The notes under the pieces are model-generated. The model was not told where the DNA came from and searched no databases. It worked only from the letters and a program-made list of their open reading frames with translations. From assembly GCA_949840955.1 (NCBI GenBank), contig CATKXV010000004.1, positions 127,804 to 175,184 on the forward strand: a stretch of 47,381 nucleotides of DNA. Direction: 5' to 3'. Below, piece by piece: positions 12,874-46,251 of this stretch. Both the position numbers and the translations under genes were made by a program. How positions within the stretch are numbered: position 1 is the stretch's first letter; each line of letters opens with the position of its first letter. This stretch comes from an uncultured Anaeroplasmataceae bacterium. GTDB taxonomy: Bacteria; Bacillota_I; Bacilli_A; Acholeplasmatales; Anaeroplasmataceae.

Positions 12874-12882
12874 TGGTATAAT
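12874..12882 (+). promoter_or_regulatory. Extended -10 promoter of the CE8 gene
   Basis: TGGTATAAT is an extended -10 element (TGnTATAAT) with no convincing -35. It puts transcription start near 12889, after the upstream in-frame ATG at 12871. The gene must therefore start at 12904, where an AAAAGGGGTG ribosome site precedes the ATG. Confidence 0.7.
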
Positions 12883-12903
12883 GAAAAAAGGGGTGAAAAA
12901 TTT

Positions 12904-26168: not shown

Positions 26169-28910
26169 TTATTTTATTTTTAAGAATTCAAAGGTAAACT
26201 GAATATGATCCTCTGTTATTTTATATTTATCATTCAGCTCGGGTCCACAGGCTGCGGTACCTACACCACTCATTTTATAATCTAAATATAAATATCGCTT
26301 CCCGTTATTTATCATTTCATTTCTATGCTTACGGTAATCCTCAAAGGAAAAGCAATCATAACAGAAGCTAAATTCCTTATTTGATTTTATGGCAATATCA
26401 TCCTCATCTAGCTTGATATATACTGTACCATAATGATCATTCGCATTTTGTGGAACAATATTTCTATAGTTATCCTTGATATGAATGGAATGAAGTCCAA
26501 ATACACTAGAGGCATGCCGATCAATATAGTTTTCTCCCTTTAATCCTAAATAGGATATAGAGCCATAATTTTCAGGTAATCGGAAACGAATTCCAAAGCG
26601 TAAGGGTCCCTTAAAGCGCATTATTTTATCTGCCGCAATATGGATAGCTATCTGGCTTTCTGTTACCTCATAAATGATTTCAACCTCATAAAATGGGGAT
26701 AATGCTGCAACCCCTAAATAGCCCTTATATACCGTTTGATTCTCTTTTTCTTCTATTGAAAACAAATAAAATCTTGCATTTTTTATTCTTAGATTTTCAT
26801 ATTCAACCTTTGTTTTAATATCATTAGAAACATAAGGTCTTGTTAATACAAATTCCATATCCTTAAATATAGGCTTTTTGTCTATTACTATAGAAGATAT
26901 GAGACCTTCATGTAAGGAAACTTGCCAATCTGCTTTTTTAGCAGGTAAATATAAGGCTTCCTTAGGCTTAGATACAATACTTTGCTCACTAACAAGGATA
27001 CCACTTGCCTCGAACAGCCGTATCGTGTATGAATTATAGTTTGAATCCTCCTTAGGCATCTCTATTAAAGGAACCGTTTCCTTTGGCTTTGCTGCAAGGA
27101 TTAAGGATTTTGTTTCCATAGACTTACCATTAATTAAATATTCAATTTCAAAATGATATTGATTTAAGTCAACAAAATCCATTCTGTTTTTTACATAAAT
27201 TGTATGATCTTTTATGCTATATTCAACAGGAGCATAGCATTCTCTCACTTCATATACCTGAGGTGTCAAGCTACGATCTAGGTTCACTAGCCCATCACAG
27301 CAAAAATCTCCATCGCTGAATTCCTCTTTAAAGTCTCCACCATAGCATTCTAAATTATTTTGGACAATATAGTGATTGGTCCACTCCCATATAAAGGCTC
27401 CTGAAAAATTATCATGCTTCCAAAAGGAATCCATATAATCCATTAATTCTCCTGAGGAATTCCCCATAGCATGTGCATATTCACATAAAATGAAAGGCCG
27501 ATTGAGCTTAGGAACCTCTGCATTACAATACTCAATGGGTGGATACATTCTTGAATAAACATCTAAAATATTTTCTTCAAAAAATCCATTCCCATCTACA
27601 TTTCTATATGCTCCTTCATAGTGAAGCGGTCTGTCATCATACGCTTTTATTTTTTTGCCATACTCTATGATTTTTTCAGAAAATCCAGACTCATTTCCTA
27701 AGGACCATAAAATGACAGATGGATGGTTGATATGCGTGATTACATTTGAAAGCTGTCTTTCAATGATTTGATCATAAAATTGTGGATGAGAAATAATTTC
27801 ATCCCATAGCTTCATATCATAGCCACCGTCCTGGCGAACAACACCATGAGTTTCTAAATCTGTTTCACTAATTACATATATTCCATTTTTATCACATAAA
27901 TCATAAAAATAAGGATCAGCAGGATAATGAGACGTTCGAACTGCATTAATATTTAAGGATTTAAAAAGCTCAATATCCTTTTCCATTAGAGCCCTTGTTT
28001 CAGCATACCCATTTAAGGAGGAGGAATGTCGATTCACACCATGCATTTTGATGATTCGACCATTTAATAATAAATGGTTCCCCTGAATTTCTATTTTACG
28101 AATACCAACATTTTGATAAATGATTTCATGATTATATTCTATTTTTAATTGGTAAAGATTCGGCTCCTCTGCATTCCATAATTTTGCATCAGGAATGGAA
28201 AAACAAGCCTCTTTTCCCTTTGCCTCAAGCTTCGTTCCAAAGCCAGTTAGACTTAGCCTAGCTTCCTTATCTAAGGTAATATAGACAAGCCCTTGGTTAT
28301 TTTGAATATCTGTTTTTATTTTAAAATTTGTTATTCGATCCTTCACTCTTTTTAAAAGATAAATCAGTCGATGAATTCCAGACAATCGAATTTTATCCTG
28401 ATCCTCTAGATAAGAGGATGGGGTAAACTTTAATACAATAATCCGAATTTCATTTTCTCCATCCACCACTTTATCGGTAATATCGAACTGAAAAACGGCA
28501 TGAGATATATTTGCAAAACCAACAAACTCCTGATTCACAAATAAATAATAGGCATTATCTATTCCTTCAACCTGAATCAGTATATCTAGATCATCCTTTT
28601 TTATATTTAGTTTTTTCGTATATACCTGTGCACTTGTTTTCTTTAATATATACGGTGGAAAATAGGGAAATAAGTATCTATCGTTAGAATATACTGGATT
28701 CCCATCCCCATCTAATTCTGCCATATATGGAACTTGAATCTGCTTTTTACAGGATACGGCTATTGCCTTTTCAAAATCAAATTCCTCTTGATAATGATAC
28801 TTCCACTCCTTTAATTCCTCTTTGAAGCCGCCCTCAACATCAAAATAGTTTGTCAAGGGAAGTGTGCCTACAGAGGTTGTGGGTATTTTATATAATTCCT
28901 TTATTTTCAT
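26169..28910 (-). CDS. Beta-galactosidase, GH2 (LacZ-like)
   Basis: This 913-aa protein has the LacZ layout: sugar-binding jelly-roll, Ig-like domains, TIM barrel (about 280-570) and a C-terminal beta-galactosidase small-chain-like domain. The acid/base Glu is in ILWSLGNESGF and the nucleophile Glu in FILCEYAHAMGNSSG. The NAVRTSHYP motif is also present. There is no signal peptide, so it cleaves imported galacto-oligosaccharides in the cytoplasm and feeds galM-galK-galT directly behind it. It starts 3 bases after the ATPase stop. Its linkage preference cannot be read from sequence. Confidence 0.95.
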   Translation of the reverse strand: MKIKELYKIPTTSVGTLPLTNYFDVEGGFKEELKEWKYHYQEEFDFEKAIAVSCKKQIQVPYMAELDGDGNPVYSNDRYLFPYFPPYILKKTSAQVYTKKLNIKKDDLDILIQVEGIDNAYYLFVNQEFVGFANISHAVFQFDITDKVVDGENEIRIIVLKFTPSSYLEDQDKIRLSGIHRLIYLLKRVKDRITNFKIKTDIQNNQGLVYITLDKEARLSLTGFGTKLEAKGKEACFSIPDAKLWNAEEPNLYQLKIEYNHEIIYQNVGIRKIEIQGNHLLLNGRIIKMHGVNRHSSSLNGYAETRALMEKDIELFKSLNINAVRTSHYPADPYFYDLCDKNGIYVISETDLETHGVVRQDGGYDMKLWDEIISHPQFYDQIIERQLSNVITHINHPSVILWSLGNESGFSEKIIEYGKKIKAYDDRPLHYEGAYRNVDGNGFFEENILDVYSRMYPPIEYCNAEVPKLNRPFILCEYAHAMGNSSGELMDYMDSFWKHDNFSGAFIWEWTNHYIVQNNLECYGGDFKEEFSDGDFCCDGLVNLDRSLTPQVYEVRECYAPVEYSIKDHTIYVKNRMDFVDLNQYHFEIEYLINGKSMETKSLILAAKPKETVPLIEMPKEDSNYNSYTIRLFEASGILVSEQSIVSKPKEALYLPAKKADWQVSLHEGLISSIVIDKKPIFKDMEFVLTRPYVSNDIKTKVEYENLRIKNARFYLFSIEEKENQTVYKGYLGVAALSPFYEVEIIYEVTESQIAIHIAADKIMRFKGPLRFGIRFRLPENYGSISYLGLKGENYIDRHASSVFGLHSIHIKDNYRNIVPQNANDHYGTVYIKLDEDDIAIKSNKEFSFCYDCFSFEDYRKHRNEMINNGKRYLYLDYKMSGVGTAACGPELNDKYKITEDHIQFTFEFLKIK

Positions 28911-28913: not shown

Positions 28914-30443
28914 CTAAACAATTCTGTTACCAGATATAGAATCAAAAAGATAGCATTTTGTTTCATCAAAGGTAACTTGAATCCGATCTCCTATTTCAAA
29001 TTTGTATGTATTGGGCAATTTCATCAGTATAAGGGCATCCTCAATTGAAACGTGAATATGATATTCATCCCCTAATAATTCAGAGGATAAAATTTTTGCT
29101 TCTAGCCGAATACAATTGGATTTATTCTTTACTAGAGTAACACGCTCAGGTCGTATCCCAAACTGAATGGGATACTTCTGCTCATGGATTATTTTTTCTA
29201 AATTTTCTATACAATGCAAGGCCTTGCTTCTTTCATCCTCTAATAAAGCATCGGTATATATTTGATCTAAGCTATCTAATTTTTTCTTTTCCTGGTTTAG
29301 CATTTCCTTATAAAACTCTTCAATTTTCAAGCCTATGGTTTGACTTTCTTGTATTAAGGTATCTGCAATATAAATACCATTCTTTTTATAAGTTACACCA
29401 AAAATATTCATTTGAGGAGATCCAATAAAGCTGGCAACAAATAAACAATTTGGATTTTCATAAACCTCTACTGGCGTACCAATTTGCTTGATATGAGCAC
29501 GATCCATAATCACAATTCGATCTGCCATCGTCATAGCCTCCACCTGATCATGAGTAACATATACTGTTGTTGCATGTAAAGCCTTATGTAGCTTAATTAT
29601 TTCCCCTCGCATACTAACTCTTAGCTTGGCATCTAGGTTAGATAAAGGCTCATCCATTAAAAGAAGCTTAGAATCACTAACAATAACTCTTCCTAAAGCA
29701 ACCCTTTGACATTGTCCACCAGATAATTGAGAGGGCTTCCTATCTAGCAATTGCTCCAAATTTAAAATTTCTGCTGCTCGTTTTATTTTTTCATCAATTT
29801 CTGCCTTCGTTAATTTTCTTTTAACAAATAGAGGCACTTCCTTTGTTTGATATTCCTGAATATCATGGTCTATATTGGCAAGCTCCTCCTCATTTTCAGG
29901 ATGATGCTTGATATACCACTTTCTTTCCTGAATTAGCTCTTGAATCGCTCTATTATCTATTCCAATTTCTTGATTTCCATCTTTATCTAGCTTCTTTGCT
30001 AAAACCTTTTTAACCTTTAAGCCATAGGCTAAATTATCGTACACTGTAAGATGAGGAAATAAAGCATAATTTTGGAATACCATACTAATTCCACGATCCT
30101 TTGGCTCTAGGTCATTAGAATAGACACCATCAATATAAAGTGCTCCTGCTGTAATATCCTCTAATCCACATATCATTCGTAGCGTCGTGGTTTTTCCACA
30201 GCCAGATGGCCCTACTAAAACAACAAACTCACCTTTTTTGATATCTAAATTAAAATCTACAACACTATAATATCCATTCGGATATATTTTTTGAATATGG
30301 TTTAGACAGACAAAGGTATCCTCATGATTTGGTAAATGCTCTTCTTTCTCCTTTAAAGCCTGTTCTCTAACTTTATTTTTATAGAAATCAGAACGAAGCT
30401 TTTCTATTTGATTTTGTTTGGTTTTTTTCCATTTTATATTCAT
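28914..30443 (-). CDS. Sugar ABC transporter ATPase, MalK/MsmX type with large insertions
   Basis: This 509-aa protein is far longer than the usual 360-390 aa. Walker A GPSGCGKTT lies at 78-86, Q-loop at Gln124, signature LSGGQ at 240-244, Walker B LLLMDE at 260-265 and H-loop at His298. The Q-loop-to-signature distance is 116 residues against 52 in the other ATPase of this window. The extra material at about 148-210 is charged and coil-like and sits in the helical subdomain. A second insertion (about 360-430) lies in the C-terminal regulatory region. Mollicute sugar ATPases carry comparable insertions. A 45-residue basic/acidic N-terminal extension precedes the ATPase. Confidence 0.93.
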   Translation of the reverse strand: MNIKWKKTKQNQIEKLRSDFYKNKVREQALKEKEEHLPNHEDTFVCLNHIQKIYPNGYYSVVDFNLDIKKGEFVVLVGPSGCGKTTTLRMICGLEDITAGALYIDGVYSNDLEPKDRGISMVFQNYALFPHLTVYDNLAYGLKVKKVLAKKLDKDGNQEIGIDNRAIQELIQERKWYIKHHPENEEELANIDHDIQEYQTKEVPLFVKRKLTKAEIDEKIKRAAEILNLEQLLDRKPSQLSGGQCQRVALGRVIVSDSKLLLMDEPLSNLDAKLRVSMRGEIIKLHKALHATTVYVTHDQVEAMTMADRIVIMDRAHIKQIGTPVEVYENPNCLFVASFIGSPQMNIFGVTYKKNGIYIADTLIQESQTIGLKIEEFYKEMLNQEKKKLDSLDQIYTDALLEDERSKALHCIENLEKIIHEQKYPIQFGIRPERVTLVKNKSNCIRLEAKILSSELLGDEYHIHVSIEDALILMKLPNTYKFEIGDRIQVTFDETKCYLFDSISGNRIV

Positions 30444-30593: not shown

Positions 30594-31511
30594 TCACCCC
30601 TTGATTCCTGAATTGGCATTTGTCTGTACAAATGCTTTATTCATAATAATAAATAAGATGATAATAGGTAAGGAGGATATAAAGGAAGCAGCCATTACAA
30701 ATGGCATGTCTCCAGCCTCAGCACCAGCAGTTGAATTTAATCCCATAATTAATACCTGAATTGTTTTTATATTGGGATCTGTTAAATAAATACTTGGTCC
30801 AAAGAAATCATTCCAAATACCCACAAACCAGAAAAGCATTTGTGCAATAAGTGCTGGCTTGATTAACGGTAAGACCACCTTGGCATAGGTGCCAAACCAG
30901 CTTACTCCCTCAACTCTACTTTCCTCTATTAAGGAATCTGGAACAGAGGCTTTAATTGACGTAATCAAAAATAGCATCATCCCCATATTTCCAAACATGC
31001 CTGGAATAATTAAAGGCCATAGGGTATTGACTAGCTTTAAATCTAACCAAACTCTATATTGAGGAAGCATAACTGCTGCATAAGGAATCATCATAGAAAC
31101 CAATAAAATAATTAAGATGATATTCTTTCCCTTAAATCTCATTTTTGCAAAAGCAAAGGCTGCTAGGGAGGATACAAATGTCCCAATTGGAACAACAAGT
31201 ATCTCGATAAGAAGCGTATTTCCTAAGCTAGATAAAAAGTTAAATTGCTTCACAGAATATCGATCGTTTCCTGTAAAGATTTCAATATATACATGCCAAT
31301 TCGGATTTTTTGGGAAAAAGTCTTTCAGCATGGAGCTAGAGCCTATAATCTCTTTTTGGGTTTTCAATGAATTTACAATCATATAAAAGTAAGGAAATAT
31401 CATCAAAAATGCTGAAAAGCATACCAATATGGTTGCAAAAATATGCAGAGCTCGATTGATGTTTTTTGTAAGATTGGCATTCTTATAAAACATATTTTCT
31501 TTATAGGTCAT
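30594..31511 (-). CDS. ABC sugar permease, MalG/LacG type
   Basis: This 305-aa protein has six membrane helices and the CUT1 coupling loop (EESRVEGVSWFGTY, a variant EAA motif) at about 195-210. The N-terminal pattern MIFPYFYMIVNSLK is typical of the MalG branch. It pairs with the MalF-type permease whose gene it overlaps by 4 bases. It is inferred to move galacto- or arabinogalacto-oligosaccharides. Confidence 0.93.
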   Translation of the reverse strand: MTYKENMFYKNANLTKNINRALHIFATILVCFSAFLMIFPYFYMIVNSLKTQKEIIGSSSMLKDFFPKNPNWHVYIEIFTGNDRYSVKQFNFLSSLGNTLLIEILVVPIGTFVSSLAAFAFAKMRFKGKNIILIILLVSMMIPYAAVMLPQYRVWLDLKLVNTLWPLIIPGMFGNMGMMLFLITSIKASVPDSLIEESRVEGVSWFGTYAKVVLPLIKPALIAQMLFWFVGIWNDFFGPSIYLTDPNIKTIQVLIMGLNSTAGAEAGDMPFVMAASFISSLPIIILFIIMNKAFVQTNANSGIKG

Positions 31512-32422
31512 TTTCTCACGTCCTTAAACATATTGGATTTACTAAACAATACAATAGTGATACATAAAATCAGTATTGCCAGTAAAATAGAAGCCGCACT
31601 GGCCCAGCCATATCTGGATTGATTGATTCCATAATTCCATATATAGTACACAATCGTCCGGGCTCCTGGCAAGCCTGCCCCCATAATTGTGCTATCTGCA
31701 TAGCTTTGTAATCCTCCGATAATTCCAGTTACAATTAAATAAAAGGAGGTGGAGTTGCTCATAGGTAAGGTAATATCAACAAATTGCTGCCATCTTGAGG
31801 CCCCCTGTACTCTTGCAACCTCATAATAGGATTCAGGAATATTATTTAATCCAGCTAAATATAGAATCATCGTTCCACCTATCCCTGCCCAAATATTTTT
31901 TATAACGATTGCAATTTTAATTAACCATGGATCATTAGAAATCCAATTTAGCTTTGTTCCAAAAAGGCTATTGATTAATCCGACCTCTCCATTTTTAAAT
32001 AGCTCCTTAAATACAATCATTATGGCAATGCTTGAGGTTACAGCAGGAAGATAAAAGAGAATCGTCAATAGGGTTCTTCCTTTAGCTAGACGCTTTAAAT
32101 ACACAGCCAAAATCAAGCCAATAAATACACCAACTGGGATACTAGCAAGCATTAAGACGGTATTTATTGCAGCCGATCTGAAATTTTCTTCCTTAAAGAT
32201 TTCTACATAATTATCAAAGCCAACAAATTTATAGGTCCCCTTTATTGGATTAAAATCCGTCATAGACATAAAAAGGGAATATCCTAAGGCATAGGCTGTA
32301 AACATTAAAAATCCTATAACAGGGATAGCAATAAATAAATAAGCAAAGAAATGCTCCTTAAATTTTGCATTAAAGGTCTTTTTATGGAATTTTTGTTTAT
32401 GCAATAATTTCATTTCTTGCAT
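31508..32422 (-). CDS. ABC sugar permease, MalF/LacF type
   Basis: This 304-aa protein has six membrane helices, the MalF-type stretch FVGFDNYVEIF after the first helix, and the coupling loop YEVARVQGASRWQQF at about 197-211. It follows the binding-protein gene by 16 bases and overlaps the MalG-type gene. Together they form the channel of the second importer. Confidence 0.93.
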   Translation of the reverse strand: MQEMKLLHKQKFHKKTFNAKFKEHFFAYLFIAIPVIGFLMFTAYALGYSLFMSMTDFNPIKGTYKFVGFDNYVEIFKEENFRSAAINTVLMLASIPVGVFIGLILAVYLKRLAKGRTLLTILFYLPAVTSSIAIMIVFKELFKNGEVGLINSLFGTKLNWISNDPWLIKIAIVIKNIWAGIGGTMILYLAGLNNIPESYYEVARVQGASRWQQFVDITLPMSNSTSFYLIVTGIIGGLQSYADSTIMGAGLPGARTIVYYIWNYGINQSRYGWASAASILLAILILCITIVLFSKSNMFKDVRK

Positions 32423-32438: not shown

Positions 32439-33833
32439 TTACTCTAGATTTTTATGAAGCTTTGTTAATTTGTCCTGGAAGGTTTGAGCATAGTCTTGAA
32501 TCGCATCCTTTGCTTTCTTTGTTCCAGCCCAAACTGGATTGAGCTGATCCATAAGATCATCCCATGCTGTTTTCTCATATGTATAATAATATGGACGAGA
32601 CTTTCCACCCATAGTTTCTGTGCCCTTTACATGATCTAAAAATACAGATTTTGTTGCTGGATATAATTTAACTCCAGATAAGCCCACATTGTTCATCCAT
32701 TCATTATTGGCCATGCTCATAATATTTGGCATAGCCTGTCCTAATTGATAATTCATTGTAGCTGCTGTTTCACTAGTTGCCAACCATTTTGCAAGTAATA
32801 CTGCTGCTGCCTTATTTTGGCTTGCAGCACTTACAGAATAAGCAACAGTCCCTATGGTTGTTGTTGACTTTGCTCCTTGGGCATCACCAACTGGAACAGG
32901 CATAATATCAAATTCAAAGGATAAGCTTTCCCAATAGGTACGCATATCCCATGGTCCCATCCAGGTAAATAAGCATTGCTGTGAAGCAAAGCGAGTAAGA
33001 GCATTGGAAGTCCCTGCTGTTGCATAATCTGAGGCTAGACCGTCTATAGATAAATCAGCCACAAATTGTACAGCATCAATAAAATTTTGATCTGTTATTG
33101 CACTTGTTGTTGCACTATCATCTGTATAATAATTGGCATTATTTGAATAAATAGCCGTACTAACATCGTAATGAGTAATCGGGGTTATACGGGTTCCATC
33201 CACCTTTAAGCCCTTAAATGCCTTTAAAAAATTTTTAAATTCTGTAAAGGTCATAGGCTGTGTTGCAGAAGGCAATTCCACATTTAACTGATGGTCCTTA
33301 ATCAATTGCTGCATTAAAGTTTTATTATAGACGATAGAGGATGGTCCTAAGTCCTTAGGCAATCCATAGATATCCTCTCCTGTACCAACCGTTTTTGTTT
33401 TTGCATCCCAACGAAAGATGTCAATAGACATAGGCCACAATTTCCCTATTTCTTCCTCAGATAAATAAGATTTTAAATTTAATAATTTACCAGAATCAAC
33501 CCATTTAATATAATCCCAATCTGGAACATAAAAAACATCTGGCAAGGAATTCGCATTATTTACTAGATTATTTGAATACACCGTAGTATCACTAATCGCG
33601 CTATAGAAAACCTTAACATTCGTATATTCTTCCATAAATTTTGAAATCATTTCCTGGAAGTTCTTTTGTTCAGCAATACCGCCCCATCCTAAGAAATCAA
33701 GCTGATATTCCTTATTTGGATCAAATTCTTCCAATTCAGGTTCCTTTGGATTATCTGAATTCTCTGGTCCGCAAGATACTAAAGAAAATGCTACAAAAAA
33801 TAAAGTTACAAGCAATAATATTTTTTTAGTCAT
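32439..33833 (-). CDS. Extracellular sugar-binding lipoprotein of ABC importer
   Basis: The ATG at 33833 is chosen because AGGAGG lies 9 nt upstream and MTKKILLLV begins a proper signal peptide; the longer in-frame version would run through the hairpin upstream. The 464-aa protein has a lipobox ending at Cys21 (SLVSC). The pattern LDFLGWGG, then DVFYVPDWDYIKWV and FTWMGPWDM, is typical of CUT1 (family 1) sugar-binding proteins. It should bring galacto-oligosaccharides to the permeases encoded just behind it. Confidence 0.93.
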   Translation of the reverse strand: MTKKILLLVTLFFVAFSLVSCGPENSDNPKEPELEEFDPNKEYQLDFLGWGGIAEQKNFQEMISKFMEEYTNVKVFYSAISDTTVYSNNLVNNANSLPDVFYVPDWDYIKWVDSGKLLNLKSYLSEEEIGKLWPMSIDIFRWDAKTKTVGTGEDIYGLPKDLGPSSIVYNKTLMQQLIKDHQLNVELPSATQPMTFTEFKNFLKAFKGLKVDGTRITPITHYDVSTAIYSNNANYYTDDSATTSAITDQNFIDAVQFVADLSIDGLASDYATAGTSNALTRFASQQCLFTWMGPWDMRTYWESLSFEFDIMPVPVGDAQGAKSTTTIGTVAYSVSAASQNKAAAVLLAKWLATSETAATMNYQLGQAMPNIMSMANNEWMNNVGLSGVKLYPATKSVFLDHVKGTETMGGKSRPYYYTYEKTAWDDLMDQLNPVWAGTKKAKDAIQDYAQTFQDKLTKLHKNLE

Positions 33834-33862
33834 TTTAAATTTCCTCCTAATTTTTATATACA

Positions 33863-33896
33863 CCGAATAGGCAATTCCTTTCAATTGCCTATTCGG
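33863..33896 (-). other. Strong intercistronic hairpin before the binding-protein gene
   Basis: CCGAATAGGCAAT and ATTGCCTATTCGG form a 13-bp perfect stem with an 8-nt loop, between the 1459-aa lipoprotein stop and the binding-protein ribosome site. No U-run follows. It is likely an RNA processing or stabilising element that separates expression of the surface lipoproteins from the transporter. Confidence 0.7.
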
Positions 33897-33904
33897 GTCA
33901 TCAT

Positions 33905-36900
33905 TTATTCTTCTTTTTTCCAAATAAGAGCTTCATATTCTGCCATAAAGGAAGCCTCATCAGGATACTCTGTATAAACAGGATCAATAAATGTTAATCC
34001 CGTCTCCCAGGTTTGAATATAGGTATAACCTACAGTTCTTTGATTCTCTGAATAGGAGAAAACAACTTGTCCATTGATTAAAACTGTTTTTTGCCAACCA
34101 GAGCATAAAATCTGTAAATGAGTTTCTTCTCCATTTTTAACTCCAAAATTCTTTTCAACAACAACCTCGTCATCTGTTCCCCATTTACATTTTGAAATTA
34201 CAATAGAGCTATCCTTGATTTCCATTTTATATCCATCATTTGTATCCCAAGCACGGAAACGAATGGTAAAGCTATCCCATGTAGTATTATTGTAGTCTGC
34301 AATAATTCTTGTATCCAATGCCACATGATTTTTTCCATCCTGTGATCCAATACGTACTATGGTAGAATTATTAGGCTCCTTGGTATTAAAAATTACCTTA
34401 TTTCCTTCAGTTGTTATATTATTTAAAGCACCCTCTGTTTCTTCAAACATTAGGTTTTTAAAGGTTTCAGCTCTTAAAGCACCTTCTTGTTCGATGGTTA
34501 AAATAGAAGAAAGCTTTTGCTTTGTTTGTTCTAATATAGCAGGAATTTCATCAACAGTAGTAACAGCATCGATTTCTAACTTACCCTCTTCTACTATTTT
34601 TGCCATTTCAGCCTTCATCTTATCACTATATTGAGTAGAATCCAGTGATGCTACAAAATCATCTAATTCTTTCTTTGCTGCGGTAGTATCCTCGTCAAAT
34701 TGCTCACGCTCAAGAGTTTTAACTGCATTTAGCCTTTTGATCGCATCCTCTACTGCGGCGTGAACCTTAGAAACCGCATTACAAGCATCAATTGTTTGTT
34801 GGGCTTCAGATATGATAGTTGCTATAACCTGTTGGTTTGTCTCACTATACAGCGATAAATCAGATATGTGATTCTCCAATGTTACCTTAGAAGCTGCTTT
34901 AGTAAGATCTAATTCCGTTTGATTGATACAATCCATTTCAATTTCAGTTTTGTAAGCTGCTTCAAATTCTAAATTCGTCGCATACTCTGTATAAATAGGA
35001 TTAATGAATGTAACTCCTGTATTTCGTGTTTCAAAATATGTACGGCCAATTACGTTTTTATCAGATTCTATTCTAAATATGCATTCCCCATCGAGTAAAA
35101 CGGATTTTGTCCAGCCATAGCATAAAATTTGTAAATGTACTTCTTTTCCATTTTCTATTCCATAAGCATTACTCATATAAAGCTCTTCTACATTTGAATC
35201 ACAATCATAAAACACAATGGAGTTTTCTGTGATAATCATTTTATATCCAAAGCCCTTATCCCAAGCAGAAAAGTGAATGATAAATTGGGAAGAAGCTGCA
35301 TAATCTATGATTAGATTTGTATCGAAGGAGGCACCCTTTCTACTATCATTACGAGTTCCGATATAGCTAAAGGTAGAATCTAAAGCCTTCGTATCAAAAA
35401 CAACCTTGTTTCCATCTAAAGCTAAATGCTCTAAAACCACATCTGCCTCTTCTAGACTATTCTTAAAATCCATTGCATTTTTCACTTGCTCTTCTACAAT
35501 GGTTAAAACTGCATCAACTGCCTCTTTAACCTGGGCTACAATAGGATCAATTTCATCAACACTTGTAACAGCATCGATTTCTAGCTTGCCATCCTCAATA
35601 AGCTTTAAAAGCTTAGCCCAGTTTGCTTCACTATACTCTGCTGAGCTGAAGGCTTGAAGATAGTCATCTAATTCTTTCTTTGCTGCGGTAGTATCCTCTT
35701 CAAATTGCTCACGCTCAAGAGTTTTAACTGCATTTAATCTTCGGATTGCATCCTCTACTGCGGCATGGACCTTAGAAACTGTATCACAAGCATCAATTGT
35801 CTTTTTGCTTTCAGAAAGGATATTCGCTATAACCTGCTGATTTTCTTCACTATACAGTGTTAAATCAAAAATATGATGATCTAATGTTGTCTTGGAATTC
35901 TCCTTTAAAAGCTCAAATTCTGATAAATTCACACATGGTGCCCAAATCAAGTCTTCATAGTCTTCCTTCATTTCTGCACTGCTTTGTGGTTCAAAATAAG
36001 TTGGATTGATTAAGGTTACACCTGTCTTCCAGGTTTCAATAAATATACGTCCAACCGTTTTATCTCCTTCCTCAATGCTAAAGATACATTCTCCATCAAG
36101 AAGGACAGTTTTCTGCCATTCATGGCATAAGATTTGTAAATGGACTTCCTTTCCATTTTCTATTCCATAGGCATTTCTCATTAGAAGCGTATCAATACCA
36201 CCTGCACGAGAATAAAATAGAATTTCATTTTCTGTTATGGTCATCTTATAGTTAATCGCTGTATCCCATGCACGGAAATTGAGGGTTAGTATGCTTCCTT
36301 CTCCTCTATAATCTACTCTAAGCTTGGTATCCAATACAGACCATTTATTCTCAGCCTGATTTCCAAATCGAACAATTGTAGAATCTACATCCTTTGTATT
36401 CCATATAACCTGATTTCCATCTGTAGTAATATAGTTTTCTATAGCTCCTGAAGTTTCATTAACTAAAGCATTCTTGAAGGCCTTTGCTCTTTCAACTTCC
36501 TCTTCTGTAATGGTTAAAACCTCATCTAAGGCTGTTTTAACAGAAGCCAATACCTCTTCCATTTCTTCTAAACTATTACATGCATCGATTTCTAGCTTGC
36601 CATCCCGAATGATTTTTGCAATGAGCTCCTGATTTGCTTTAGAATAAAGAGTTACATCGGTAATATATTCTTCGATTTCAGTTTTCTTAGCTATAGCCTC
36701 TGTATCAAAGGCTTCTCTTTCTAGTGTCTTAATCGCAGCTAATACCTTTTTGATGTCCTTTACTTCTAGATTTACATTTTCTATCGTAGTACAAGCATCA
36801 ATATTTTCTTTTCCTAAAGCCAAGGCTTCATCTAGCTTGACTCCATTCGCTTGGCTATATAAGCTCTTATCAAAGGTTTTGAAATAATCATCAAGCTCCT

Positions 36901-38284
36901 GTTTCGCATTCGTCTTTGCAGCTGCAAGCTTTTCTGCTTCAGTTTGATTGATGCATTCCTTCCACAATAGCTCATCATAATCTGCTTTGAGGGTTGCACT
37001 ATCCTTAGGCTCTGCAAAATAAGGATCACATAGGATAAATCCTGTTTGCCAAGTTTCAATATAGGTATAGCCTACACTGCGTTCTTCCTCCTCAATGGTA
37101 AATATACATTCCCCATTAATTAATACCGTTTTCTTCCATTCATGAGCTATAATTTGAAGATGATATTCTTGGTTATCCTTCATACCAAATTCATTATGAA
37201 CCAATAATGTTTCTAAAGTTCCATTTAAATCATTACTCCAAACAGCAGAATATATATCGATATGATCATCATATATTTTCATCAAATAGCCATGAGATAA
37301 ATCCCAAGCGCGGAATCGAATAGAAAAGCTAGAGCCTGCCACACCTAAATAATTTGGAGTTATTTTAGCATCTAATACTTGGTATGGATTGGTATCCTGA
37401 GTACCTAGACGCAACCTTACTGTACCTTGATTTTTCGAATTTAATGTGAGCTTATTGTTCTCTAGTGTCACGAAATCTAAGGCCCCTGCGGTATCCGCAA
37501 ATAATCCATTTTTAAAGTCTAGGGCATTTTGTATCTTTTCTTCTTCTATGGTTAATACCTTATCTAAATCCGATTTTGTATCTGTCAATATAGCAGTAAT
37601 CACAGCTTCCTCTGTGGCAGCATCAATGTTTTCCTTCGCATCCTGAATCATTCTTTCAATTTCTGCTAAGCCCTTTTTGCTATAAAGTGTCTTATCCTGA
37701 ATATACCCCTCCAATTCTACCTTGGCAGCAGCTTTCATTGTAGCTAACGCTTCTGTAGCAAGGGTAGGTATTCCATCGATTTCCTTTTTAGCAGAGGCTA
37801 CAAGTGGAGTGACATCTGAAGCCTTTGTACATTTTTCAATTGCTGCTTTAGCATCTTGAATCACTTTAGTGATTTTGGCTTGATTGGTATTGCTATAATC
37901 AGATAGCTTCACATAGGAATCCAATTCATTTCTTGCATCTGCAATGGCCTTAGCTAAGTCTTCTGCTTCTATAGTAGGAAGCTTATCTATCGCAGATTTT
38001 GCAGCAGAAACGGCAGCCTTGATATCAGCCTCTGTCTTTGCCTCTTCTATTTTTGTTTTAGCAGTAGCAATCAGCTTTTTTATTTCTGCTTGATTGGTAG
38101 AACTGTATACAGCCATATTTTTTACATAGCCATCCACTTCCTTAACAGCAGCTTCCCTTTGCGTTTTTAATTCATCGGTTTCAACTACTGGTGGCTTTTC
38201 AACTACTGGTGGTTCATCCTTTTTACAACCAACTAAAGATAAACCTGTAATGATAAACAATAACAAAATTAATCTTTTTTTCAT
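33905..38284 (-). CDS. 1459-aa surface lipoprotein with FIVAR-like helical repeats and four unrecognised beta-sandwich-like modules
   Basis: Signal peptide with lipobox LVGC and lipidation Cys20. Residues 35-250 hold three helical repeats of about 70 residues (FIVAR-like, with YSxxNQAxIxKxIxxAK). Then come four homologous modules of about 185 residues at about 254-442, 600-781, 937-1118 and 1275-1456, separated by pairs of the same helical repeats, giving a period of about 340 residues. Each module carries FRAWD--GYKM, LQILCxxWxKTVLL and DGECIF or equivalents. The pattern suggests a lectin-like (concanavalin-type) glycan-binding domain, but I do not recognise the family. It probably acts as an elongated surface tether for polysaccharide next to the GH43-like lipoprotein. 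Confidence 0.9.
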   Translation of the reverse strand: MKKRLILLLFIITGLSLVGCKKDEPPVVEKPPVVETDELKTQREAAVKEVDGYVKNMAVYSSTNQAEIKKLIATAKTKIEEAKTEADIKAAVSAAKSAIDKLPTIEAEDLAKAIADARNELDSYVKLSDYSNTNQAKITKVIQDAKAAIEKCTKASDVTPLVASAKKEIDGIPTLATEALATMKAAAKVELEGYIQDKTLYSKKGLAEIERMIQDAKENIDAATEEAVITAILTDTKSDLDKVLTIEEEKIQNALDFKNGLFADTAGALDFVTLENNKLTLNSKNQGTVRLRLGTQDTNPYQVLDAKITPNYLGVAGSSFSIRFRAWDLSHGYLMKIYDDHIDIYSAVWSNDLNGTLETLLVHNEFGMKDNQEYHLQIIAHEWKKTVLINGECIFTIEEEERSVGYTYIETWQTGFILCDPYFAEPKDSATLKADYDELLWKECINQTEAEKLAAAKTNAKQELDDYFKTFDKSLYSQANGVKLDEALALGKENIDACTTIENVNLEVKDIKKVLAAIKTLEREAFDTEAIAKKTEIEEYITDVTLYSKANQELIAKIIRDGKLEIDACNSLEEMEEVLASVKTALDEVLTITEEEVERAKAFKNALVNETSGAIENYITTDGNQVIWNTKDVDSTIVRFGNQAENKWSVLDTKLRVDYRGEGSILTLNFRAWDTAINYKMTITENEILFYSRAGGIDTLLMRNAYGIENGKEVHLQILCHEWQKTVLLDGECIFSIEEGDKTVGRIFIETWKTGVTLINPTYFEPQSSAEMKEDYEDLIWAPCVNLSEFELLKENSKTTLDHHIFDLTLYSEENQQVIANILSESKKTIDACDTVSKVHAAVEDAIRRLNAVKTLEREQFEEDTTAAKKELDDYLQAFSSAEYSEANWAKLLKLIEDGKLEIDAVTSVDEIDPIVAQVKEAVDAVLTIVEEQVKNAMDFKNSLEEADVVLEHLALDGNKVVFDTKALDSTFSYIGTRNDSRKGASFDTNLIIDYAASSQFIIHFSAWDKGFGYKMIITENSIVFYDCDSNVEELYMSNAYGIENGKEVHLQILCYGWTKSVLLDGECIFRIESDKNVIGRTYFETRNTGVTFINPIYTEYATNLEFEAAYKTEIEMDCINQTELDLTKAASKVTLENHISDLSLYSETNQQVIATIISEAQQTIDACNAVSKVHAAVEDAIKRLNAVKTLEREQFDEDTTAAKKELDDFVASLDSTQYSDKMKAEMAKIVEEGKLEIDAVTTVDEIPAILEQTKQKLSSILTIEQEGALRAETFKNLMFEETEGALNNITTEGNKVIFNTKEPNNSTIVRIGSQDGKNHVALDTRIIADYNNTTWDSFTIRFRAWDTNDGYKMEIKDSSIVISKCKWGTDDEVVVEKNFGVKNGEETHLQILCSGWQKTVLINGQVVFSYSENQRTVGYTYIQTWETGLTFIDPVYTEYPDEASFMAEYEALIWKKEE
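34400..38050. repeat. About 1-kb internal repeats within the 1459-aa lipoprotein gene
   Basis: The module plus two-helical-repeat unit recurs every roughly 1020 bp. Some linkers are nearly identical in DNA, for example the segments encoding KVHAAVEDAI and LEREQF at about 34680-34760 and 35690-35770. This indicates recent internal duplication or gene conversion. Confidence 0.7.
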
Positions 38285-38381: not shown

Positions 38382-40811
38382 TTATAAGGTTTTAATTTTA
38401 AGATTAGAGAAGGTTACCTCCATATGATTGGAATATAATCCACAATAGCCTCTAGTCCTTCCCATCGGATCAAATGTCTCTAAAACCTTTGTCCCATTCA
38501 CATACATTGTAATGACTTTCCCTTGCTTAATGGCCTTAATATTGTATGTTTCTCCAGTTTTGAATTGATAAATATCACGACAGGTTTCATCAGAATACTG
38601 ATAATTTGATTTTATAATGGTTATTTTGTTTGTATTTAATGCACAATAATACCCTCGAATGGATTTATAATTATCTAAATCAACATTATTTAAAGCCCAA
38701 TCATCACAGGCAAGAACAATACCTAGGGTTCCTGTACCATTATCACCTGTAATTTTAATATCACAGCTCATTTCTACATCCTCTAGAGTGCCATTCCCAA
38801 AGGTACACAAATATCGAGCTGTATTTGTTGTTACTAATCCAGCCTCTGTAGAGTTCATAAAGGTTGGATACTGAATACCTTTGTCTGGATAGCTTTTCAG
38901 ATCATGCACATATTCTGTTCCACTTGTACTATAATTCTTTTCACAATATAGCATTTGAAATGAAAACTCAGCCTCTAAGGAAATCAATGTGATATAATGG
39001 TTTCCTTTTTCTAAATATAAATCTGCAACCTTATCTTTAAAATATCCCTTATAAAGCTGATTGCTGTAGTCTGGAATCGTCCATTTCATGATATCCCCAC
39101 CATCAATTTGAATACCAATTTTTTTTCCATAATCCGCATAGGATGTAACCATATCCAAGCCATAGGAGCCTGTTTCTGTAACATACTCTAAATATGTAGC
39201 ATAGTCTCCCTTATTTGCAAGCTTCATTTCGAAGCTTCCGTCTAAAACATCCTGAGGAATTGTGTTTTCTACAGCAACAATTCCACTATTTTCTGTAAGA
39301 TGGCTCAATACTAAATCATAGGAGGTTGCAGGAATGTTTTCTTGCTTTGCAGTTTTTTTATCACTATCTCCTTGGGCTGTATTATTAAAGGTTAAACAAC
39401 CCTTTATCGCATAAGAATCGGTATAGCCAACCTTACCACCGCGAAATTCTCCTACCTCTACATCATTTGCAATTTCCTGGGAATCAAAGGATACATCCAT
39501 AAGTCCATCCTTATAGCCAATACGTATTGCATGTAAAACCTCAGTATTAAAGCTACGATAGGTCGGTACTTTTGCTTTCACCTCGTCTTGTCCATCGCTT
39601 ACCTTATGAATGGAAAGTGTATTCCCATTAAAATCTATATAGCCATAGTTCTTATGATCTTGATAAGAAAATATCATTTTACCAGAGCCTGCCACATTGA
39701 ATTCAATTGTAAAGGAATCCTTTGTAGCATCACTACTCAATAAAAGCTCTTCACTTTTCGTTAATCTCGTAAAATCGGCTTCAACATAATCTGCAAGGCT
39801 AGGTACGATGTTGTCATATAATCCCGTATGCTGCATCATAACATCGGTTCCATTAAAGAGAAGTCTTGACAAATTAAATCTTCTACCTGTATTATTTCCT
39901 TCAGAAAAGGAGTTATGGTAGCCCATATAATAGCTATCTAAATCTGGTCCCATAATAAGACAGCCATGACCTAAGCCATACCAGTCATCCTCTGTATTTA
40001 ATAAAATATTTTTTCCTTGCTGAATTGAATTTTGATCTGTAATTGACTTATCCGCTGAATTAAAGCAATAATCCATACGATAGGCCTTTTGAGTTACTCC
40101 ATTTCCAGTGAAAAAATAATATCTTATACCGTTCACTGTAATAAGCTCTGGACCTTCTGTCCATCCAGACATAGTCACATTTCTTAATAATTCCTTATCT
40201 CCAACCGATTTCATATCATCCGCAAAATAGGCTGCTGCCATATAGCTATCTGCTGTAAGCAAAACCATTCTACCATCAATATCCATATACATGCTTCCAT
40301 CTATGTTATTATCAATCATTTGATCGGTAAGCACCTCAAATGGGCCTTCAGGAGAATCACTTTTCATTACATAATGACCTTTTCCATTTCTTGATTCAAC
40401 TAAATAGAAGGTTCCATCCAAATAATAAACCTCACTTGCCCATGCATCAAAGGATTCATCTATGGAATCACTAACAATATAGCCTCTTTTATTGACTCCA
40501 TTATCAACAGGCTCCCAGTTCATTAAATCAACTGACTTCCAGCCCTTTACTCCCTTTTGACCATATTGGGTAGAGCAAATTAAATAATAAACTCCATTAA
40601 ATCGATATATATAAGGATCACCCAGTCCATAATTATTTCCCCATTGTCCTTCCAATCGATCCTCTAAAAAAGTATTCTGATAGGTTTCAAATTCTACGGG
40701 AACATTTTTAAGCTCGGGATTACTTACAAATTCTACATTTTCATGAACTTCACTAGAACATCCCACAAGGAGGAATAATCCTAATATTAATCCTAATTTT
40801 AAATGCTTCAT
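38382..40811 (-). CDS. GH43-like lipoprotein with C-terminal lectin-like domains
   Basis: This 809-aa protein has a lipobox LVGC with Cys18. Residues about 55-350 form a GH43-like propeller with the base Asp65 in LGDPYIYR, the modulating Asp171 in NIDGSMY, and the acid Glu219 in TEGPEL. A beta-sandwich follows (about 355-480), then a CBM-like middle domain (about 500-640), then a laminin-G / 3-keto-disaccharide-hydrolase-like sandwich (about 650-809, ending TFSNLKIKTL). As a surface arabinosidase or exo-galactanase it would start breakdown outside the cell. Family membership is likely; the substrate is inferred from the galactose genes downstream. Confidence 0.85.
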   Translation of the reverse strand: MKHLKLGLILGLFLLVGCSSEVHENVEFVSNPELKNVPVEFETYQNTFLEDRLEGQWGNNYGLGDPYIYRFNGVYYLICSTQYGQKGVKGWKSVDLMNWEPVDNGVNKRGYIVSDSIDESFDAWASEVYYLDGTFYLVESRNGKGHYVMKSDSPEGPFEVLTDQMIDNNIDGSMYMDIDGRMVLLTADSYMAAAYFADDMKSVGDKELLRNVTMSGWTEGPELITVNGIRYYFFTGNGVTQKAYRMDYCFNSADKSITDQNSIQQGKNILLNTEDDWYGLGHGCLIMGPDLDSYYMGYHNSFSEGNNTGRRFNLSRLLFNGTDVMMQHTGLYDNIVPSLADYVEADFTRLTKSEELLLSSDATKDSFTIEFNVAGSGKMIFSYQDHKNYGYIDFNGNTLSIHKVSDGQDEVKAKVPTYRSFNTEVLHAIRIGYKDGLMDVSFDSQEIANDVEVGEFRGGKVGYTDSYAIKGCLTFNNTAQGDSDKKTAKQENIPATSYDLVLSHLTENSGIVAVENTIPQDVLDGSFEMKLANKGDYATYLEYVTETGSYGLDMVTSYADYGKKIGIQIDGGDIMKWTIPDYSNQLYKGYFKDKVADLYLEKGNHYITLISLEAEFSFQMLYCEKNYSTSGTEYVHDLKSYPDKGIQYPTFMNSTEAGLVTTNTARYLCTFGNGTLEDVEMSCDIKITGDNGTGTLGIVLACDDWALNNVDLDNYKSIRGYYCALNTNKITIIKSNYQYSDETCRDIYQFKTGETYNIKAIKQGKVITMYVNGTKVLETFDPMGRTRGYCGLYSNHMEVTFSNLKIKTL

Positions 40812-40823: not shown

Positions 40824-43160
40824 CTATTTGTTGTCATCCACGATAAAATACGTGCTTGGTCTATTAAAATCGACAGGCTTATTGTTGACCGTTAAAAATG
40901 AATTTTTATTTAAAGTATCATGGTATAAGCCAACAGCAAAACCAATATTTCCTTGTTCTCCTGTAAAAATGGAATTGCTTATTTTAATATAAATGGTATT
41001 ATCATATAAATAAGTCCAGGTTTCTACAGCATTGAGCTCATATTTTTTAGTTGTGCTTTCTTTATTCGTTTTCACATCAAATCCATTATAGTAGGATACT
41101 GGCTTTCCAGGATATAAGGAAATATGATAGCAATTCTGGTCTCGATTGGATTTACTAGCAGAGCAATTCATATCTAGATAAATATTTAGAGAATGTCCTT
41201 GATCCAGCATGCCAACACCATTATCCAATAATTCTAGCTTTAGCATGACATAATCCTGAGCCTTCGCGTAGCTTACCGTATACCCAACCGTTTCAAAGCT
41301 TGCAGCTAAATTACCTATAATACCTAAATCAGTATAGTTCAATTCTTCAAATGGCAAGGTATTACAAGAGCCTTTAAAAAATTTTGAAGCTTTATCCAAT
41401 CGAACATAATTGATTGTTGCTTCTGCTTGAATATAAGCACCCTTTTGATCATACATTCCTGCCCAATTATAATTATTCTTGATACCAAAATATAAGCCAA
41501 ATATCTCTTCCTTAGTTATCCCTATTTTGTTATAAGGAATATCAGCTTCTACATAATATAAATCATTGATTCTTCCATAGGTTGTTTTTATACCACTTTC
41601 GTTTGTGCTCTTCCCACCATAATTGGTTATATTGACTACACCCTTTTCACGATAGCCTAGACAGAATAAATAATCTGTAGCATTTCTCATATCCATTCCA
41701 TTGGATTCCTTTGTATCAATGAAAAGCTCAAAATAGGAGGCTGCTGCTTCACTAGATTCCATATTCGCTTCTGTTTTTAATACTACCTTAAATGCGTCTT
41801 CTCCACGAACTACTCGTGCTGTTGCAAAGCCTACAATTGAATTTCCAAAGCCAATCACATCTCCAAAGCCTTCATCCAATTGGACGGAAGAAAGCTCTGT
41901 TGTTCCACCAACATTGACAGTAGCAATACCCAAGTTCGCCTGATAGGTTAAATGCTGAGCCTCTGAGTAAGAGATAACATTGCTATACCCATTACAATCC
42001 GAAAATAAAGTATAATTTCCATTAGAATCCGTCTTTGTTGTTGCATGGTTTAACTCAACCAAAGCATTTGCGATAGGCGTTTTGCCATCTCTTTCCGTTA
42101 CCTTTCCCGAAATAGTGGTTTGATAGGAGGCTTCACTTAAGGATAAGAAAATGGTATTTCCTAGATCAAACTCATTATTTAGTGCCAAGCGTATATCTGC
42201 TTTAGATACCCGCTTAGAATACGTTAGATAGTTTGATTTGGAATATTCGATTTCAAAATCATCTGAGGCATTTTCAAACTCCAAAGCATATTCTCCTTTA
42301 GAATTGGTATAAGTTGTTTTTATCCCCTTTGCAGATACCTTAGCTCCTGCAACAGGGTTGCCAGCCAAATCCACAAGATTTCCACGAATGGCTCCAGTTA
42401 ATGGACAATCATTTAGCTTATAGAATTTATTATCCTTATGAAGAACCAAATAATTATCTGGAATTTGTGGATCAATTTCACCATTCCATTTATATCCTCT
42501 ATTTCCTGTTTTTGTAACTCTTGCAAAAGCAAAGGAGGTTGGTGTGTTTTTATTCACATCTTCTCCTAATACAGCATAGGATATATAGCCCTCTACATTA
42601 AAGCCCTGATCCACATCTGTATGATCATTTACCGTTCCATAGGTAAATACATTCGCAACAAAGCCTGTCAGATAGGAATAAATACGACCAGAGGCAGTAA
42701 CACGGAATTCATATTGATTGCTTCCTCTTTTTTGTCCACCTGTACCATAGGCATCCACATAAAGCTCAACAGAATCCGATTGAGCTGTTACCAAATTGAT
42801 GTCCTCCACATTTAAAGTAGAAAGAGAATCATCCTCACACTCAAATAAAAAATAAATTGCCTTTTCACCCTTATGAATGGATACGTATGTAGTTTCAGTC
42901 TCGCTAGCATAAACAAGATGTCTTCCACTACCTGTTGGATAATCATACGCCTCATCTCGAACCCCATCCAATTTTAGTTCTGGGTCAGTATAAAGCCCCT
43001 TATTCCCAAAAGGATCTACATCATCCTTTACCTTTTCTCCATCCTTAATGACTGTTTCTTCGCCAAAAACCAAATCATAAATTGTAGTGGTTTGACTACA
43101 TCCAGCCAAAAATAAGGCAAGAGGTAAAATCCATAAAAATCGTTTTAATACTTTTGTCAT
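40824..43160 (-). CDS. Surface lipoprotein with CBM9-like and carboxypeptidase-regulatory-like domains
   Basis: This 778-aa protein has a lipobox LAGC with Cys21. A CBM9-like / DOMON-like sandwich lies at about 50-250 (LKLDGVRDEAYDY, then DSVELYVDAYG). Two CarboxypepD_reg-like Ig folds follow (about 258-335, GAIRGNLVDLAGNPVAGAKV; and 348-425, ISGKVTERDGKTPIANALV). Two more CBM9-like sandwiches make up about 430-778. There is no catalytic motif, so it is a glycan-binding protein exposed on the cell. It is the first gene of the galactose operon and has a good AAAGGAG site. Confidence 0.85.
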   Translation of the reverse strand: MTKVLKRFLWILPLALFLAGCSQTTTIYDLVFGEETVIKDGEKVKDDVDPFGNKGLYTDPELKLDGVRDEAYDYPTGSGRHLVYASETETTYVSIHKGEKAIYFLFECEDDSLSTLNVEDINLVTAQSDSVELYVDAYGTGGQKRGSNQYEFRVTASGRIYSYLTGFVANVFTYGTVNDHTDVDQGFNVEGYISYAVLGEDVNKNTPTSFAFARVTKTGNRGYKWNGEIDPQIPDNYLVLHKDNKFYKLNDCPLTGAIRGNLVDLAGNPVAGAKVSAKGIKTTYTNSKGEYALEFENASDDFEIEYSKSNYLTYSKRVSKADIRLALNNEFDLGNTIFLSLSEASYQTTISGKVTERDGKTPIANALVELNHATTKTDSNGNYTLFSDCNGYSNVISYSEAQHLTYQANLGIATVNVGGTTELSSVQLDEGFGDVIGFGNSIVGFATARVVRGEDAFKVVLKTEANMESSEAAASYFELFIDTKESNGMDMRNATDYLFCLGYREKGVVNITNYGGKSTNESGIKTTYGRINDLYYVEADIPYNKIGITKEEIFGLYFGIKNNYNWAGMYDQKGAYIQAEATINYVRLDKASKFFKGSCNTLPFEELNYTDLGIIGNLAASFETVGYTVSYAKAQDYVMLKLELLDNGVGMLDQGHSLNIYLDMNCSASKSNRDQNCYHISLYPGKPVSYYNGFDVKTNKESTTKKYELNAVETWTYLYDNTIYIKISNSIFTGEQGNIGFAVGLYHDTLNKNSFLTVNNKPVDFNRPSTYFIVDDNK

Positions 43161-43461
43161 CTTTTTCTCCTTTCTCTTTTATGCCTACCATTATTAAAAG
43201 ATCATCATTTCATATTTTTATACTTAAATTATACAATTTTGAAATACTTGAATTATTGTAAATTTTTTCTATATGCTTCATTGACTATTTCAAAAAATAA
43301 TCTCCCAAACCCAAATCCTAGTGCCAAAATTCATATCATAGTACTTAAATATTTCAAAAAAAGTTAGGAAATGGATAAGGTTACCTATGGAATACATATA
43401 TAGCAAACTACAATTTCTATATAATAATTATAACAAAATTCATAAAAATCTAAATTGATTA
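43161..43461. promoter_or_regulatory. Divergent control region between galactan operon and AraC-family gene
   Basis: The minus-strand -10 TATAAT lies at plus 43228-43233 with a poor -35, as expected for an activator-dependent promoter. A 10-12 bp motif TTTTTGAAATA occurs three times: TTTTGAAATACTTGAA at 43237-43252 (plus), and its complement within 43284-43296 and 43343-43360. The first adjoins the -35 position. These are candidate binding sites of the AraC-type regulator. No gene was seen here. Confidence 0.5.
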
Positions 43462-43475
43462 TGTCAACGCTTACA
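43462..43475. promoter_or_regulatory. cre-like operator upstream of the AraC-family gene
   Basis: TGTCAACGCTTACA matches 13 of 14 positions of the CcpA cre consensus TGWAANCGNTNWCA and abuts the -35 hexamer directly. Confidence 0.65.
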
Positions 43476-43505
43476 TTGACAATATCACAATTTTTATTAT
43501 ATAAT
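43476..43505 (+). promoter_or_regulatory. Consensus sigma-A promoter of the AraC-family gene
   Basis: TTGACA (43476-43481), an 18-bp spacer and TATAAT (43500-43505) match both hexamers perfectly. Transcription would start near 43512, leaving only about 12 nt before the ATG, so the leader is very short. Confidence 0.85.
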
Positions 43506-43523
43506 ATATTCGTGGTGAATTTT

Positions 43524-44309
43524 ATGTATGGAATAGATTTAAATGATGAAATAACCTTTTTTCATGCTTCTGAACGTTTTTTTAAAAAGGACGATCGGCA
43601 TATTAATCGTATCGGATATTGTGATGTTTTGCTTCTAGTATATGAGGGTGTTCTACGATTCAATATTGACGGGGAAGAGGTTGAGGTACGAAGTGGAGAA
43701 TACTATATTCAAAGAAAAGGAACAATTCAAAAGGGAACAAAGCCAAGCTCTTCTCCAAAATATTTTTTCATTCATTTTAAAGCAAATTGGGATAATTCTG
43801 AATACGTTCTTCCCTATCGAGGGTATTTCTCCTTTTATGAATTAGAAAAATACCTTAGAAATGTCAACTCCTATTTTGGAACAAATAATTTTTATATTGA
43901 TAAACTGAATTCCTTTTATACAATTCTTCTTTCCTTATTAAAAAATCCCAAAAATGAGTCCTTAGCTTCTAAAATAATGGATTACTTAAGAAAAAATTTT
44001 TTAGAAATCAAATCGTTAGATGAGCTGAGCACACATTTTGCTTACTCCAAAAATCATATCATTAATATTTTTAAGGATAAATACAATACCACTCCTACAA
44101 GCTACATCCTAGAATTAAAAATCAATAATGCGATGTATCTTTTAGAGGTTACCTCTATGTCTATCATTGATATATCCATTCAATCAGGATTCAACAATTA
44201 TTCTCAATTTTATAGAAAATTTTTTGAATTTAATGGCATGTCTCCTGAGCAATGGAGACAAAGGATACGAAAGACAGAAATCATTTCTCCATTTGAGAAA
44301 AAGGCTTAA
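43524..44309 (+). CDS. AraC-family transcriptional regulator
   Basis: The ATG at 43524 is chosen because the -10 box at 43500-43505 excludes the earlier in-frame TTG; GTGGTG lies 6 nt upstream. The 261-aa protein has an N-terminal cupin sensor (about 1-140, with VLLLVYEGVLRFNIDG and EYYIQRKGTIQKG). The C-terminal double helix-turn-helix is at about 165-255, with LSTHFAYSKNHIINIFK and the second motif IIDISIQSGFNNYSQFYRKFFEFNGMSP. It is divergent from the galactan operon, so it most likely activates it when a galactose- or arabinose-type sugar binds. Confidence 0.95.
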   Translation: MYGIDLNDEITFFHASERFFKKDDRHINRIGYCDVLLLVYEGVLRFNIDGEEVEVRSGEYYIQRKGTIQKGTKPSSSPKYFFIHFKANWDNSEYVLPYRGYFSFYELEKYLRNVNSYFGTNNFYIDKLNSFYTILLSLLKNPKNESLASKIMDYLRKNFLEIKSLDELSTHFAYSKNHIINIFKDKYNTTPTSYILELKINNAMYLLEVTSMSIIDISIQSGFNNYSQFYRKFFEFNGMSPEQWRQRIRKTEIISPFEKKA

Positions 44310-46173: not shown

Positions 46174-46251
46174 GTTAATTTCCTCCAACAAATCCAATAT
46201 GGTAAGGATAAGTTATTCTTCATTTATTATAACAAATCAAATTTAACTTGA

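Follow-up and report, generated by a model that had tools for sequence, protein, structure and literature searches.

How polysaccharides are retained at the cell surface is less well described for gut bacteria of Gram-positive type, which lack a SusCD system, than for Bacteroidota. In the latter, SusE, SusF and other surface glycan-binding proteins are non-catalytic lipoproteins with tandem binding modules, encoded in polysaccharide loci (PMC9112005, PMC7618045). Among Firmicutes, Sas20 of the Ruminococcus bromii amylosome is a non-catalytic polysaccharide binder of the cell surface, whose domains sit apart along a flexible linker (PMC9112005). A Gram-positive polysaccharide-utilisation locus is understood to combine a polysaccharide-degrading enzyme, a carbohydrate transporter and a transcriptional regulator in one locus (PMC5320581). 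Here we analyse a stretch of 47,381 nucleotides (the window) from an uncultured Anaeroplasmataceae bacterium (assembly GCA_949840955.1, contig CATKXV010000004.1, positions 127,804 to 175,184), in which such a locus encodes a 1459-residue lipoprotein, hereafter the array, with four predicted beta-sandwich modules on helical spacers. By analogy with SusE and SusF, the array is probably a membrane-anchored, non-catalytic glycan-capture lipoprotein of this Gram-positive polysaccharide-utilisation locus. The analogy is functional: SusE and SusF are outer-membrane proteins with X25 or Ig-type modules, whereas the array belongs to a Gram-positive-type cell and combines concanavalin-like modules with three-helix spacers, and Sas20 differs as a starch-specific part of the amylosome with unrelated domains. 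A literature search returned no paper on polysaccharide capture by Anaeroplasmataceae.

The array gene starts with ATG and is present in one copy in the 2.1 Mb genome. Its translation opens with MKKRLILLLFIITGLSLVGCKK, a lipoprotein signal in which the lipobox-like LSLVGC ends in Cys20. Along the protein, four modules of about 178 residues (W1 to W4) alternate with nine helical repeats of 72 residues, three of which lie ahead of W1 and two ahead of each later module:

33905..38284, minus strand: 1459-residue lipoprotein with four beta-sandwich modules and helical spacers (open reading frame and translation; single copy)
38225..38284, minus strand: lipoprotein signal peptide with lipobox LVGC (Cys20), read from the sequence
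37538..38176, minus strand: N-terminal stalk of three 72-residue three-helix repeats (a homologous tandem pair was modelled)
36995..37528, minus strand: module W1, residues 253-430 (motif and BLASTP comparison of modules)
36500..36928, minus strand: spacer pair preceding W2 (AlphaFold2)
35957..36490, minus strand: module W2, residues 599-776 (motif and BLASTP comparison of modules)
35489..35923, minus strand: spacer pair preceding W3, 63% identical to that of W4 (sequence comparison)
34952..35485, minus strand: module W3, residues 934-1111 (motif and BLASTP comparison of modules)
34484..34918, minus strand: spacer pair preceding W4 (sequence comparison)
33938..34471, minus strand: module W4, residues 1272-1449, the C-terminal tip and best conserved module (AlphaFold2)

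The similarity among the four modules lies far beyond chance, with BLASTP E values of 1e-39 to 1e-60 at 35-45% identity and 36-47% identity in global alignments of module pairs. The motif F[RS]AWD recurs at residues 324, 670, 1005 and 1343 (spacings of 346, 335 and 338), and LQI[IL]...W.K[TS]VL at residues 376, 716, 1051 and 1390. An earlier account of this DNA, the sequence-only reading, had described four homologous units on helical spacers at a period of about 340 residues, and these data bear out that layout. The FRAWD--GYKM motif it had given as shared is exact in W4 and takes variant forms in the other modules (FRAWDLSHGYLM, FRAWDTAINYKM, FSAWDKGFGYKM).

The module fold was modelled with AlphaFold2 on W4, using the seven available module sequences, four from the window and three from an ortholog described below. 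The model (predicted local distance difference test, pLDDT, 92.4; predicted template modelling score, pTM, 0.88) is all beta except for short helices near the ends. Foldseek matched it to 732 PDB chains at E <= 0.001, and 832 of the 1000 chains aligned to it reached Z >= 8. A concanavalin-like beta-sandwich, as proposed from the sequence, is well supported by this model and its structural matches. The top Foldseek match is CBM66 of Bacillus subtilis SacC (PDB 4azz/4b1m; E 2.3e-8, TM 0.62, 12% identity), a concanavalin-like domain of equal size that VIA-align scores at Z 15.2 (160 residues aligned, 3.4 A). In that alignment, the thrombospondin C-terminal domain and xyloglucan-active enzymes of the GH16 type score within 1 Z of CBM66, in effect a tie. 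According to a citation in PMC5320581, CBM66 binds levan oligosaccharides at their terminal fructose. We saw no fructan gene here, and CBM66 is not arranged in tandem on spacers.

Identity to CBM66 in the structural alignments is only 10-12%, too little to place the modules in that family, and a module profile searched against PDB sequences with E values of up to 10 returned no chain of any carbohydrate-binding module (CBM), CBM66 included. The whole protein scores 38.7 bits against DUF6250 (PF19763; gathering score 26.9) through short matches to the C-terminal hairpin in several modules, whereas the best single module reaches 18.4 bits over about 50 profile positions, below that gathering score. 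Several modules also show weak, partial hairpin matches to 3keto-disac_hyd (PF06439). The literature search found no paper naming DUF6250. Galectin (PF00337) was rejected as an identity, with 16.2 bits for W4 (E 0.0075; gathering score 22.1) and no listing for the other modules, as was Membrane_bind, whose match stayed below threshold. We do not assign the module to CBM66, DUF6250 or galectin, and by sequence it is new; the architecture is familiar, and the domain within it falls in no firmly recognised family. The initial statement that the module falls in no recognised CBM family thus agrees with the PDB profile search and was slightly too strong in view of the DUF6250 score of the whole protein.

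Structural matches to PL7 alginate lyases, to xyloglucan-active enzymes and to the 3-keto-glycoside eliminase/hydratase 9fbe (Z 13.9) raise the idea of catalytic modules: several copies, on a single chain, of an enzyme with concanavalin-like fold, for instance a lyase, a GH16-like hydrolase or a 3-keto-glycoside eliminase. Invariant E, H, Q, Y, K and D residues and the weak DUF6250 and 3keto-disac_hyd matches would fit. We consider it very improbable, since no module passes the cut-off of a catalytic family and no 3-keto-sugar dehydrogenase is found among the neighbouring genes examined. Tandem copies on spacers, four in this case, are typical of binding modules.

Alignment of the seven modules, mostly about 45% identical, reveals 24 invariant positions, several of them polar residues on strands. 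They include D53, W75, D76, Y81, E116, H118, Q120, K128 and E168 (W4 module numbering), and the polar and aromatic residues W75/D76, Y81, D53 and K128, like E116/H118/Q120, follow an alternating pattern on their strands. E116, H118 and Q120 occupy alternate positions of one strand and are therefore expected on one face; Y151, E153 and W155 alternate likewise, with less strict conservation. Such alternation is the pattern that would be expected for a ligand groove. These positions also bear on a quite unlikely alternative, in which the modules are structural only and serve as beta-sandwich beads, without a ligand site, that lengthen the stalk or shield the surface. Internal modules do diverge freely (about 45%), the two known arrays differ in length (four versus three modules), and periscope-type surface proteins gain length from folded repeats (PMC9704523). 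However, mere beads would account poorly for the invariant polar positions, for a tip module that is 72% conserved while its adjoining spacers are less so, and for the use of concanavalin-like modules in a homologous locus as well.

Apart from the source genome, the array was found only in a second species of its genus (an Anaeroplasmataceae metagenome-assembled genome, JAIEEQ010000082), whose ortholog of 1132 residues lies in identical gene order. As it has three modules rather than four, array length varies. No further relative was found by protein or profile search of genome contigs, including class and phylum samples and all 55 family genomes, or of viral contigs and plasmids. Two weak matches were taken as chance: one (G016, E 0.033) lies in a protein that looks like a PolC-type DNA polymerase, and the other (G002, E 0.017) covers 58 residues of an open reading frame beside response-regulator-like genes. 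Among eight orthologous pairs compared between the two species, the array shows the lowest conservation, at 51% identity versus 69-90%. Within it, W4 and the ortholog's tip module are 71-72% identical, whereas all other module pairs range from 36 to 47%, and the spacers beside the tip fall below the tip's own conservation. Internal spacer pairs are 38-63% identical; the pairs of W3 and W4 mark the upper end, with 82% DNA identity across the first 90 residues, a pattern suggesting that a unit was recently duplicated or converted. Periscope proteins are defined by high-identity tandem repeats whose number varies within a population (PMC9704523). The identities of modules and internal spacer pairs in the array are lower, and its copy number difference is known between two species only.

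The array lies within an operon of genes in the same direction, encoding a CBM9-like lipoprotein, a lipoprotein of glycoside hydrolase (GH) family 43, the array, a solute-binding lipoprotein, two permeases, an ATPase, a LacZ-type GH2 enzyme and GalM, GalK and GalT. A divergent AraC regulator and a second GH2 gene lie upstream:

40824..43160, minus strand: CBM9-like/CarboxypepD_reg lipoprotein (Pfam)
38382..40811, minus strand: GH43 lipoprotein with a C-terminal PF06439 (3keto-disac_hyd) domain (Pfam; acidic motifs GDP, DGS and TEGP)
32439..33923, minus strand: solute-binding lipoprotein of an ATP-binding cassette (ABC) transporter (SBP_bac_1, Pfam; match to 6rjy)
30594..32422, minus strand: two ABC permeases (BPD_transp_1)
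28914..30443, minus strand: MalK/UgpC-type ABC ATPase
26169..28910, minus strand: GH2 beta-galactosidase, LacZ type (Pfam)
22387..26097, minus strand: galM, galK and galT, galactose catabolism
43455..44309, plus strand: AraC-family regulator, divergent
44419..46197, minus strand: GH2 enzyme kept in the homologous locus of another family (Pfam; 53% identity to a protein of L069, the G117 locus)

With GH43 and GH2 enzymes, an ABC transporter and an AraC regulator, the locus has the content of a Gram-positive polysaccharide-utilisation locus, and Pfam matches and gene content agree with the placement first suggested, beside the GH43 lipoprotein. Since the operon contains genes for galactose catabolism, it likely targets a galactose-containing glycan; our best guess is a pectic side chain or arabinogalactan. 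An exo-galactanase identity (GH43_24) for the GH43 neighbour found no support, as its PDB matches are of xylosidase and arabinofuranosidase type. The solute-binding reading frame, listed from a TTG codon, overlaps the array gene; an internal ATG (MTKKILLLV) is probably the real start, and from there the two genes do not overlap.

A locus from another family of the same class (genome G117) offers a comparison. It encodes a solute-binding protein, two permeases, a CBM9-like lipoprotein, a GH43 lipoprotein and a GH2 enzyme homologous to those of the window at 26-53% identity (GH43 lipoprotein, 32% over 840 residues; GH2, 53%; transporter proteins, 30-42%). It also encodes a 1562-residue lipoprotein (L069:5649-10334) that resembles the array in carrying tandem concanavalin-like modules and differs from it in having eight PF06439/DUF6250 modules, no helical spacers and an InlB-type repeat at the N-terminus. 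Because two arrays of the same kind of fold, unrelated in sequence, serve homologous loci, polysaccharide capture gains support, and this analogy is the strongest comparative support for it. From this comparison, the array would seem to be an exchangeable part: the need for it is conserved and its sequence is not. A further proposal, which we hold tentatively and at somewhat less than even odds, is that the modules are founding members of a new CBM family confined to one genus, which would fill the role that a sequence-unrelated array has in the homologous locus, its tip module being conserved and its internal modules having diverged in specificity. As far as sequence comparison goes, the module family is new and narrowly distributed within a known architecture.

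Several observations weigh against glycan capture. The fold by itself tells nothing of function, as it is common to many non-binding and catalytic domains, and enzymes stand among the VIA-align matches within 1 Z of the best. Profile-profile comparison gives no significant homology between the modules and the C-terminal domain of the GH43 lipoprotein (P 0.035), and no link to the eight genuine PF06439/DUF6250 modules of the G117 array. The ligand evidence is mixed: the closest solved relative of the solute-binding protein is an arabino-oligosaccharide binder (6rjy, E 1.7e-39), and neither the L-arabinose isomerase gene araA nor a GH53 endo-galactanase was found in the 97% complete genome. Galactan, named as the ligand by the sequence-only reading, does not emerge from these results, though LacZ, GalM, GalK and GalT are encoded in the operon. 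The candidate groove is positioned by strand alternation, and the glycan binding of the array is putative.

The spacers were modelled as a tandem pair (pLDDT 95.9), in which six helices form two three-helix bundles. Their helical character is thus borne out, and the bundle is of the kind found in FIVAR; the FIVAR label (PF07554) itself was dropped, with a best single repeat at E 0.066 and a pair at 9.5 bits against a gathering score of 29.2 bits. No GA profile match rose above cut-off either. Embp, EbhA and group B streptococcal beta antigen C are among the structural matches, at Z 6-11 (Embp 6gv5, Z 8.8, 1.5 A over 60 residues), a range common for helical bundles. Ebh and Embp, with FIVAR and GA repeats, and beta antigen C likewise use tandem three-helix bundles as a surface stalk; unlike the array, they are giant or wall-anchored proteins and not lipoproteins with beta-sandwich heads. 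Among relatives, the spacer profile is present in 18 of 150, and some carriers are lipoprotein-like enzymes with pectate lyase and CBM77, GH85 or transglutaminase-like domains; the order thus seems to use helical spacers repeatedly to carry carbohydrate-active domains. A 2383-residue lipoprotein (L059:1215-8363, genome G042) combines ten InlB-type repeats, the same spacer type, pectate lyase and CBM77.

The likeness of the spacers to Embp and EbhA could suggest that the array is an adhesin that recognises glycans or proteins on host or microbial surfaces, its modules being stalk-borne lectin heads of the kind known from repeat adhesins of streptococci and staphylococci, and that it serves attachment rather than feeding. 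A long repeat stalk with beta-sandwich heads, the rank of the array as the fastest-evolving protein of its operon and the presence of galectins among the Foldseek matches would agree. We nonetheless find this unlikely: both species keep the array within a conserved operon for sugar utilisation, an analogous array occurs in the homologous locus of another family, pectin genes occur elsewhere in the window, and the galectin sequence matches are not significant (E 0.07).

Although NCBI files Anaeroplasmataceae under Mollicutes, we reject a wall-less setting. Nearly complete genomes of the genus (G000-G010) encode some three penicillin-binding transpeptidases that pass the Pfam cut-off, so the genus is likely walled. 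Several sister-family genomes encode no such transpeptidases. A stalk that begins with three spacers before W1 suits a lipoprotein that crosses a wall. In the proposed glycan-capture mechanism, the lipid anchor would keep the N-terminus in the membrane, and the spacers would take the modules across the cell wall and further outward. Each module may bind a plant glycan, identical or related from one module to the next, in a groove lined by invariant W75, D76, E116, H118, Q120, K128 and others; the likeliest ligand is arabinogalactan or a pectin side chain that contains galactose. Several weak sites on one long chain would retain the polysaccharide by avidity. The neighbouring GH43 and CBM9-like lipoproteins would then act on the captured polysaccharide, and the transporter would take in oligosaccharides for LacZ and the Leloir enzymes. 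A lipid-anchored chain of glycan-binding modules on helical spacers would be a simple and testable answer to how such bacteria hold polysaccharides, and the module could serve as a new plant-glycan binding reagent.

Elsewhere in the window, a separate pectin cluster occupies the first third (497-13827) and encodes a GH43 enzyme with GH43_C2, a GH28 enzyme, a pectinesterase and a second ABC transporter. Beside that transporter lies a gene for a 797-residue protein (7580-9973) with no Pfam or NCBIfam match at the thresholds used. Two small membrane-protein-like genes (21288-21779, 163 residues, and 21878-22348, 156 residues) are adjacent and closely similar, apparently the product of a recent tandem duplication.

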